Of a stretch of 64,000 nucleotides of DNA, positions 18,161-23,500 are shown in pieces. The notes under the pieces are model-generated. The model saw only the letters and a program-made list of their open reading frames with translations. It did no database searches and was not told where the DNA came from. This stretch comes from Winogradskyella aurantia (lineage in GTDB: Bacteria > Bacteroidota > Bacteroidia > Flavobacteriales > Flavobacteriaceae). Location: NCBI RefSeq assembly GCF_002266855.1, contig NZ_NGJN01000007.1:62001-126000 (forward strand). The letters are read 5' to 3'. Position numbers and translations under genes: made by a program. Position 1 is the first letter of the stretch; each line of letters starts with the position of its first letter.

Positions 18161-18984
18161 AGTCTCGCATTTTTATATTCACCTAACACTTTAAAATTTT
18201 CTGCCATAATTTCCATTAAGGATTTGGCCTTGCTGTAATCTTTGTAATCTTTGAAAGTCACGTCCACAAAAAAGGCATATTTCCATGGTGTGTCCATAAT
18301 TGGCAAGGATTGAATCTTTGTTAAATTTAGTTTACAATCGCTCAAGACATTAAGTATTGTGGCTAAACTTCCGCGTTTATGGTCCAAAACAAATTTAAGA
18401 GATGCCTTGTCCATCCGGGTAAAATCGTTGTTTTCTGTCTCTCTTTTAACTATTACGAAGCGTGTTTCGTTATGTTTTATGGTTTGAATACTTTCTGCCA
18501 AGACTGAGAGTTTATATAGCTCAGCAGCCTTCTTACTCGCGATAGCGGCGATATGCTTCACGTTTTTTTCGGCAATTTGCTTAGCAACCTCCGCTGTATC
18601 CCTGGCCTCAACCAATTTAATATGCGGTAGGTCCTTTAAAAACATCTTACACTGCAATAAAGCCATAGGGTGGGAATGAACCTCAGATATATCTGCAATA
18701 GATTGACCAGGTAGTGCCATTAAATGATGTTGGATATCCAAATAATATTCCCCTACTATGTTTAAGTTATTATTATCTATGAGTGCGTAATTTGGAATTA
18801 TCGAACCTGCTATTGAATTCTCTATAGCCATAACAATCTCATCAGAACTACCCTCTAATAGACTTTCTATAACACCATCAAAAGACATACACTCCTCGAC
18901 TGCTGCACTGTCATTGAAATAGTGCTGTACAACTTCATGGTGAAACGAACCCTTTATCCCTTGTATCGCTATTGGTTTGGTCAT
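18157..18984 (-). CDS. pheA: prephenate dehydratase
   Basis: PheA converts prephenate to phenylpyruvate. The 275-residue protein has an N-terminal dehydratase domain: IQGIKGSFHHEV, AIENSIAGSI, and the active-site region ETRFVIVKRE at about residue 165 (TRF in the classical enzyme). A C-terminal ACT domain (about 190-270) carries SLATILNVLSDCKLNLTKIQSLP, with the ESRP-like element that binds phenylalanine, so the enzyme should be feedback-inhibited. There is no chorismate mutase domain; that activity is on the operon's last gene. Its ATG lies four bases after the T run of an intrinsic terminator, the attenuator described separately. Confidence 0.95.
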   Translation of the reverse strand: MTKPIAIQGIKGSFHHEVVQHYFNDSAAVEECMSFDGVIESLLEGSSDEIVMAIENSIAGSIIPNYALIDNNNLNIVGEYYLDIQHHLMALPGQSIADISEVHSHPMALLQCKMFLKDLPHIKLVEARDTAEVAKQIAEKNVKHIAAIASKKAAELYKLSVLAESIQTIKHNETRFVIVKRETENNDFTRMDKASLKFVLDHKRGSLATILNVLSDCKLNLTKIQSLPIMDTPWKYAFFVDVTFKDYKDYSKAKSLMEIMAENFKVLGEYKNARL

Positions 18985-18987
18985 AAT

Positions 18988-19015
18988 AAAAAAGTCTCGA
19001 TTATATCGAGACTTT
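18988..19015 (-). terminator. attenuator terminator directly before pheA
   Basis: On the minus strand AAAGTCTCGA (19015-19006), a 5-base loop and TCGAGACTTT (19000-18991) form a perfect 10-bp stem followed by T6. The T run stops four bases before the pheA ATG at 18984. No gene ends immediately upstream except the Tyr/Phe-rich leader peptide, so this terminator can only act on transcripts about to enter the operon. Confidence 0.9.
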
Positions 19016-19051
19016 ATAGATTTTTATTTTAATAAAACATATTAAGCCTCG
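19007..19051 (-). promoter_or_regulatory. candidate antiterminator helix of the pheA attenuator
   Basis: CGAGGCTT (minus 19051-19044), which covers the last leader codons and part of the stop codon, can pair with AAGTCTCG (19014-19007), the 5' arm of the terminator. This gives 8 bp with one G-U pair. The pairing excludes the terminator. A ribosome that reaches the leader stop codon would cover this arm and favour termination; one stalled at the aromatic codons would leave it free. Confidence 0.7.
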
Positions 19052-19110
19052 TTTCCTTTAGAATAAAAGAAATAAAACCAGTTATAATATGTTTTTGTTG
19101 TATTCATCAT
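19042..19110 (-). CDS. Tyr/Phe-rich leader peptide of the pheA operon
   Basis: A 22-codon frame (ATG ATG start, TAA stop at 19044-19042) contains YYNWFYFFY at residues 8-16: four Tyr, three Phe and one Trp in nine codons. The next residues are SKGNEA. Such a run before an operon for Phe and Tyr synthesis is the hallmark of classical ribosome-mediated attenuation, as in the E. coli pheL and trpL leaders. The frame was too short for ordinary gene calling. Translation of the peptide senses charged tRNA(Tyr) and tRNA(Phe); it probably has no function as a protein. A start at the second ATG (19107) is equally possible. Confidence 0.88.
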   Translation of the reverse strand: MMNTTKTYYNWFYFFYSKGNEA

Positions 19111-19123
19111 TACAATTAGACAG

Positions 19124-19154
19124 CTAAAGTAACTATTATTATGTAAATACAAAA
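19124..19154 (-). promoter_or_regulatory. candidate promoter of the pheA leader
   Basis: On the minus strand TTTTG (19154-19150) is followed after 18 bases by TACTTTAG (19131-19124). The second is close to TAnnTTTG but not exact. The implied start is a few bases upstream of the leader ATG. Confidence 0.35.
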
Positions 19155-22105: not shown

Positions 22106-22118
22106 CTGCAATTAGTAA

Positions 22119-22175
22119 AAGAGGAAAAATTTGATCTGATTGCAACCTCTAAAAAAAATGCTAAAGCAGTATCAA
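22119..22175 (+). ncRNA. SAM-II-like riboswitch controlling metK
   Basis: The leader folds into the H-type pseudoknot typical of SAM-II. P1 pairs AGAGG (22120-22124) with CCTCT (22146-22150). The loop then contributes TTGAT-CTG (22131-22138), which pairs with CAG-t-ATCAA (22167-22175) as P2. The conserved single-stranded ATTGCAA before the P1 3' arm and AATGCTAAAG after it match the SAM-II consensus I remember (ATTGCAA ... GCTAAA). The next gene makes SAM, so binding would give product feedback. The aptamer ends 71 bases before the metK ATG; the expression platform is not obvious. Confidence 0.82.
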
Positions 22176-22246: not shown

Positions 22247-23500
22247 ATGCCCTATTTATTTACTTCAGAAAGTGTTTCTGAAGGTCACCCCGATAAAGTT
22301 GCAGACCAAATTAGCGATGCCTTAATTGATAATTTTTTGGCCTTTGACCCTGATGCTAAAGTCGCATGTGAGACTTTAGTAACCACCGGACAAGTAGTAC
22401 TGGCCGGCGAGGTGAAATCTAACACCTATCTAGATGTACAAAAAATTGCAAGAGACACTATCAATAAGATTGGCTATACTAAGGGCGAATATATGTTCGA
22501 TGGCAACTCTTGCGGTGTCTTTTCTGCGATACACGAACAGTCTGAAGACATCAATCGGGGTGTTGACCGTGCCACTAAAGATGAGCAAGGTGCTGGCGAC
22601 CAAGGTATGATGTTTGGTTATGCAACCCGTGAAACCAATAATTACATGCCTCTGGCATTAGATATATCGCACCTTATCTTAAAAGAATTAGCTGCGTTAA
22701 GACACGAAAACAAGGATATTACCTATTTACGGCCAGATTCTAAAAGCCAAGTTACTATTGAGTACAGTGATGACAATACACCTCAACGTATTTATTCTAT
22801 AGTCATTTCAACCCAACATGATGAATTTGGTGAAGAACAGGCCATGTTGGAGAAAATTCGAGCTGACATAAAATCCATTCTTATCCCACGGGTTATTGAA
22901 AAAGTACCTGATCATATTAAACCTTTATTCAACGATGCTATTATTTACCACATAAACCCTACGGGTAAATTTGTTATTGGCGGTCCTCATGGAGATACTG
23001 GATTAACGGGACGAAAAATCATAGTAGATACTTATGGAGGCAAAGGCGCACACGGCGGTGGTGCCTTTTCTGGTAAAGACCCAAGTAAGGTAGATCGAAG
23101 TGCAGCTTATGCCACGCGCCATATCGCCAAGAATTTGGTTGCCGCAGGATTGTGTGATGAAGTATTGGTACAAGTCTCTTATGCCATTGGTGTTGTAGAG
23201 CCTATGGGTATTTTTATTGACACTTATGGAACATGTCCCTTCAATTTAACCGATGGGGAAATTGCACAAAAGGTAACTGACCTATTTGATATGCGACCAG
23301 CGGCCATAGAGAAACGCCTTAAACTACGTCAGCCCATGTATAGCGAAACAGCAGCCTATGGCCATATGGGGCGTACTAACGAAATTGTCACAAAAACATT
23401 CCAACAACCAGATGGTGAAACCATAACCCTAGATGTAGAGTTATTCACTTGGGAAAAACTAGATTATGTAGACAAGGTTAAGACAGCCTTTGGTCTTTAA
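22247..23500 (+). CDS. metK: S-adenosylmethionine synthase
   Basis: MetK makes SAM from methionine and ATP. The 417-residue protein is longer than the 384-residue E. coli enzyme, normal for Bacteroidota. It starts [21 protein letters not shown] and has the loop [13 protein letters not shown], the substrate-binding [20 protein letters not shown] and [20 protein letters not shown]. All catalytic Lys, Asp and His positions I can align by eye appear present. It is a single-gene unit, with a SAM-II-type element in its leader and a strong terminator after it. Confidence 0.98.

Follow-up and report, generated by a model that had tools for sequence, protein, structure and literature searches.

A probable Tyr/Phe-responsive transcription attenuator in front of the pheA operon of Winogradskyella aurantia and its relatives

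In front of the aromatic amino acid operon of Winogradskyella aurantia lies what is very probably (we put it at roughly 0.92) a ribosome-mediated transcription attenuator of the classical type. It would sense the charging of tRNA(Tyr) and tRNA(Phe), and possibly also of tRNA(Trp). The element lies in a window of 64,000 nucleotides, by which we mean the whole stretch of DNA that was analysed. An earlier note on this DNA had proposed classical attenuation here, and the proposal is well supported by the leader, the covarying helices, their conservation and the modelled positions of the ribosome. At the level of sequence, comparison with relatives establishes the leader, its control codons, three alternative helices, the conservation of these parts and their geometry. 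The features are as follows.

19152-19124, minus strand: putative promoter, TTG (19152-19150), 18 nt, then TACTTTAG (19131-19124)
19110-19042, minus strand: leader reading frame MMNTTKTYYNWFYFFYSKGNEA, 22 codons and a stop, from the sequence and from homologous aromatic-rich leaders in relatives
19095-19034, minus strand: 1:2 (protector) hairpin, in which AAAACATATTA (19095-19085) pairs with TAATATGTTTT (19044-19034); predicted to form when no ribosome is on the leader
19051-19044, minus strand: antiterminator 5' half, arm B, CGAGGCTT, which overlaps the last codons of the leader and covaries with arm C
19015-19005, minus strand: shared arm C, AAAGTCTCGAT, which pairs with B (antiterminator) or with D (terminator)
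19001-18991, minus strand: terminator 3' arm D, ATCGAGACTTT, with a T6 tail at 18993-18988, from sequence and covariation
18984-18157, minus strand: pheA, prephenate dehydratase, the first controlled gene (NCBIfam scan)
18160-17018, minus strand: PLP-dependent aminotransferase (NCBIfam scan)
17012-16161, minus strand: tyrA, prephenate dehydrogenase (NCBIfam scan)
16131-15049, minus strand: DAHP synthase/chorismate mutase fusion (NCBIfam scan)
15040-15012: hairpin of 13 bp, flanked by T/A tails, downstream of the DAHP synthase gene; probably the operon terminator and usable in both directions

The leader DNA, ATGATGAATACA...GAGGCTTAA, encodes a peptide in which eight of the nine residues of the stretch YYNWFYFFY are aromatic. 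The control codons are Tyr8, Tyr9, Trp11, Phe12, Tyr13, Phe14, Phe15 and Tyr16, and the 22-codon Tyr/Phe-rich frame described in the earlier note is thus present at the coordinates given there. No Shine–Dalgarno sequence precedes the window leader, which is usual for the Bacteroidota. Short frames with at least six aromatic residues in nine occur upstream of pheA on the sense strand of 167 of 181 loci (a few of them duplicates). The antisense strand of these regions, taken as the chance control, has such a frame in 5 of the 181. Every one of 150 distinct leader cores has at least two Tyr and at least three Phe codons, and 65% have one Trp; relative to the proteins of the window, Tyr is enriched 5.0-fold in these cores, Phe 6.8-fold and Trp 3.7-fold. 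Because the operon contains both tyrA and pheA, the sensing of Tyr together with Phe is the natural reading.

Transcription is predicted to start near 19117, downstream of a putative promoter that departs at one position from the Bacteroidota -33/-7 consensus TTG / TAnnTTTG. A promoter-like match with no mismatch or one is found in 127 of 165 relatives and in 39 of 159 cases in an upstream control stretch, and this excess is position-specific.

The RNA downstream can adopt alternative structures. The terminator, AAAGTCTCGAT-ATA-ATCGAGACTTT (19015-18991), is a perfect stem followed by T6, as had been described before at these coordinates, and the stem is one base pair longer than the 10 bp claimed (11 bp); three bases separate the end of the T run (18988) from the pheA ATG at 18984. 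The antiterminator had been described as 8 bp with one G-U, and this is exactly what the sequence offers, with CGAGGCTT (19051-19044) pairing with AAGTCTCG (19014-19007). Taken in isolation, the helices have energies of -11.8 kcal/mol (antiterminator), -13.0 kcal/mol (terminator) and -17.4 kcal/mol (1:2 hairpin). The 175-nt region as a whole folds at -41.5 kcal/mol compared with -21.8 +/- 3.2 kcal/mol for dinucleotide shuffles (z = -6.2), a value that none of 200 shuffles equalled.

The predicted regulated unit consists of four genes, namely pheA, the aminotransferase, tyrA and the DAHP synthase/chorismate mutase fusion. The gene upstream of the element, gldA, is divergent from the operon, and therefore the terminator serves only the operon below it. 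Among relatives, 159 of 177 loci have the aminotransferase gene directly after pheA, at a distance of no more than 60 nt. The other PF00793 protein of the genome reads as a KDO8P synthase from its sequence, and class II DAHP synthase (PF01474) is absent; the fusion in this operon is therefore the only DAHP synthase that was found. A weak Trp input would fit the control of this enzyme.

To follow the distribution of the element, we searched for PheA in a set of 40 relatives and, more widely, in 150 genera of the family (131 hits) as well as across the order and the phylum; the upstream DNA examined came from about 130 other genera of the family and from other orders. The closest named relatives belong to Winogradskyella, with a PheA that is 79% identical. 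Among 170 leader-bearing loci, counted with leaders of at least five aromatic residues in nine, a terminator candidate lies 3' of the leader in 169, and 165 of these are strong. Outside the order, the leader and terminator design is found in families f17, f18, f19, f22 and f23 of the same class and, beyond the class, in families f29, f32, f41 and f47 of the same phylum. The arm sequences of other orders are quite different, e.g. GCCGGGACT/AGTCCCGGC and GAGGCGGGA/TCCCGCCTC, and a family of the same order (f9) has the further variant GAGCGGTC/GACCGCTC. The aromatic frame, the terminator and compensatory changes in the antiterminator, which the earlier note had named as the marks of a conserved element, are kept at every level compared, from the genus and the family up to the order and further orders of the phylum. 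The predicted attenuator is thus shared by much of the phylum Bacteroidota.

Outside the order the leader always accompanies the IQG..SFH type of PheA, and no aromatic leader was found with the other PheA types (FQGExGAFSE and that of family f5). Families f29, f32, f41 and f47 have the IQG..SFH PheA and the leader, and in some cases their relatives have a different PheA type and lack the leader; the operon and its attenuator may have moved as one. Some loci (L284, L286 and L318, in families f23 and f19) carry two aromatic-rich leaders in tandem before pheA, mostly with one terminator each, and are probably tandem attenuators. In family f16, in genomes of 0.6 Mb (L084-L086), PheA is kept and both leader and terminator are absent, as expected if a reduced, symbiont-like genome has dropped the regulation.

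How well are the helices themselves maintained? Covariation was counted over 95 distinct sequences, with inherited changes included in all counts. Across the eight antiterminator pairs 87% of the cells are paired, and 97 two-sided changes are seen compared with 29.7 +/- 11.4 after shuffling and at most 44 when the arms are slid; the covariation score is 0.41, compared with 0.24 for shuffles. For the terminator, 97.6% of the cells are paired and there are 87 two-sided changes, compared with 10.4 +/- 5.8 after shuffling. The pairing score of B with C is 18.3 for a sequence's own arms, 12.0 for shuffled arms and 12.4 when arms are swapped between divergent species. Furthermore, the frame of arm B with respect to the leader stop is not fixed, all three being represented, and in some species the arm lies past the stop, which argues that it is the RNA pairing and not the peptide that is kept.

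We also placed these changes on trees. On a tree of 72 PheA proteins spread over genera, the independent pairs that differ in arm C show few compensating changes in B, about 6.6 at four positions, with none against and the remainder G-U or unchanged; each column has one to four supported independent pairs, none of them against compensation, at numbers that do not reach significance per column. A tree of 143 full-length PheA is dominated by close relatives, with too few changes for a covariation test. The 1:2 helix, between the proximal part of the leader and the stretch that follows B, is kept with altered sequences as well, e.g. AAATTATACATAT/GTATGTATAATTT and CAAGTAACCGT/ATGGTTATTTG in relatives for AAAACATATTA/TAATATGTTTT in the window, and its pairing exceeds that of shuffles over the set, clearly so in about half. 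With this helix also retained, the full 1-2-3-4 scheme of an attenuator is present.

To relate the helices to translation we modelled a ribosome whose footprint reaches 13 nt ahead of the A site and let the RNA extend as far as the last base of arm C. In the window the antiterminator has a modelled probability of 0.98 with the ribosome at any aromatic codon and of 0.00 with the ribosome at the stop codon. Among relatives, placing the stalled ribosome on the first or the middle aromatic codon leaves the antiterminator available in 162 of 165 sequences, a figure to which the search contributes in that arm B was sought downstream of the aromatic core, making part of the stall geometry a matter of construction; a ribosome at the stop blocks the antiterminator in 164 of 165. 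Of the leader codons, 89% of those for Tyr, 96% of those for Phe and 99% of those for Trp are positioned for an antiterminating stall, unlike the majority of Glu, Lys, Arg and Gly codons. In an equilibrium fold the terminator beats the antiterminator even when the ribosome is stalled, hence the switch must be kinetic and set by the order of folding during transcription. Known attenuators are likewise kinetic switches.

A mechanism can be proposed from these parts. RNA polymerase would start near 19117 and transcribe the leader, with a ribosome following. A shortage of Tyr or Phe would stall the ribosome within YYNWFYFFY, where it would cover region 1; CGAGGCTT could then pair with AAGTCTCG ahead of the synthesis of the terminator's second arm. 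With the antiterminator formed, the polymerase would continue into pheA and on through the aminotransferase, tyrA and the DAHP synthase/chorismate mutase gene. If both Tyr and Phe are plentiful, the ribosome would reach the stop codon and cover CGAGGCTT, the 11-bp terminator would form, and transcription would end about three bases before pheA. Without any ribosome, the 1:2 hairpin would hold region 2 and termination would again be favoured. We infer from this arrangement that transcription and translation are coupled, that termination takes place and that it responds to Tyr and Phe. The aromatic genes of this marine bacterium would then very probably be switched on only when Tyr or Phe is short.

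Alternative explanations of the same features have to be weighed. Could the leader act like TnaC, as a nascent peptide that arrests the ribosome in response to free aromatic amino acid, rather than through slow decoding of Tyr and Phe codons? Within the genus the stretch TYYNWFYFFF is strongly conserved, Trp and Asn included, and Asn is 2-fold enriched in the leader core. However, arrest peptides require fixed residues at fixed distances, and between genera Tyr and Phe swap and shift while the composition is kept, e.g. YYNWFYFFF, YFYFYFF, FYFSNSFYFFF and YFWNGFYFYFFF. Such free interchange fits the reading of codons rather than a fixed arrest peptide, which we regard as very unlikely. Slightly less likely again is that the hairpin simply terminates transcription, or masks the pheA start site and so acts on translation, the short frame being incidental or encoding a small membrane peptide. 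The terminator does lie three bases from the pheA ATG in the window, but among relatives it may be as far as about 120 nt from the gene, and a plain terminator would have nothing to terminate, as the upstream gldA is divergent. Neither version accounts for an antiterminator arm that covaries, nor for a leader whose length, start and end vary freely among relatives.

A stable, structured 5' region ahead of biosynthetic genes might also suggest an RNA that directly binds uncharged tRNA or another ligand, i.e. a T-box or a riboswitch. We consider this very improbable, the least likely of the alternatives: the region has no Rfam match to either class at gathering score, the T-box covariance model gives no match there up to E = 10, and the conserved part consists of leader codons and the 1-2-3-4 arms, without an aptamer-like core. 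Leader-peptide attenuation thus remains our preferred reading. A more ambitious version of it is that Tyr, Phe and Trp together gate the flow of carbon into aromatic biosynthesis as a whole, through the sole DAHP synthase, as well as both terminal branches, and that the attenuator is inherited with this type of PheA across the Bacteroidota, with tandem copies in some families. This is possible and we offer it tentatively, the balance being somewhat against it. If it is true, ribosomes trail RNA polymerase closely in the Bacteroidota.

As far as we know, experiments have established leader-peptide attenuation chiefly in Proteobacteria and Actinobacteria; we know of no experimental proof of it in Flavobacteriia, nor of any published ribosome-mediated attenuator whose control codons include Tyr. 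A literature search of partial coverage likewise found no report of attenuation with Tyr control codons. Single leaders that carry control codons for several amino acids made by their operons are familiar from Enterobacteria, i.e. ilvGMEDA (Ile/Val/Leu) and thrABC (Thr/Ile), whereas the amino acids here are Tyr and Phe, and possibly Trp. No Rfam family covers the pheA element, and at a permissive threshold there are only sub-threshold matches to leaders and sRNAs. The best of these is Phe_leader (RF01859), at 26.7 bits and E = 0.015 compared with a gathering cut-off of 55. The enterobacterial pheL that this family represents is similar in having a leader peptide with Phe codons, alternative 1:2, 2:3 and 3:4 helices and a terminator before pheA. 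It differs in reading Phe alone, whereas here the control codons are Tyr and Phe (often with Trp), in lacking the tyrA and DAHP synthase genes that this operon adds, and in phylum.

Within the Bacteroidota the Bacteroid-trp leader, described in 2010 by Weinberg et al. (PMC2864571) and held in Rfam as RF01692, is likewise an attenuator-type leader, but with Trp codons and trp genes. Its covariance model has no match in the pheA leader. The nearest precedent is an RNA-seq study of F. psychrophilum (Guerin et al. 2021, PMC9723704), which found that a 5' region upstream of pheA is transcribed and structured, occurs in other Flavobacteriaceae too and has no Rfam match; for amino acid operons it reported strong clues that leader peptides attenuate transcription. 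The region is very probably the same element, and the main text of the paper gives no leader sequence, antiterminator, Tyr/Phe specificity or distribution beyond the family. The novelty is therefore below what the earlier note implied, since the kind of element is known and the one before pheA had already been flagged in 2021. The present comparison adds the identity of the leader, the covarying antiterminator, a probable specificity for Tyr and Phe, the connection with the only DAHP synthase found, and the breadth of occurrence.

The genome contains further leaders of this kind. A Trp leader, MKTKLNHTWWWNFTEQFS (WWW), with a terminator-like hairpin precedes trpE and scores 47.6 bits against RF01692, just below the cut-off of 49; a His leader, MFIHFHHHLTSLNQAR (HFHHH), also with a terminator-like hairpin, precedes hisG on the minus strand. 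The His leader is of the same class, has no convincing Rfam match and probably also deserves its own family. In both cases the leader matches the amino acid made, and they serve as internal positive controls that the genome uses such attenuation. A Thr leader before thrA was looked for in the genome and none was found.

The wide occurrence of the pheA attenuator, together with the his and trp leaders, suggests that Bacteroidota depend on a ribosome that closely trails the polymerase. We know of no demonstration of ribosome-polymerase coupling in this phylum, whose members do not use Shine–Dalgarno initiation in the usual way. In practical terms the element is an unannotated gene together with what would be a ready-made Tyr/Phe-responsive expression switch, in more than 100 genera.

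The ilvD/edd family (PF00920) is absent from this genome and present in 14 of 14 control genomes, and the organism may be unable to make Ile and Val. Finally, the only Rfam match in the window is a SAM-II riboswitch at 22115-22174 on the plus strand (68.4 bits, gathering score 44), about 70 nt upstream of metK (22247-23500, plus strand).
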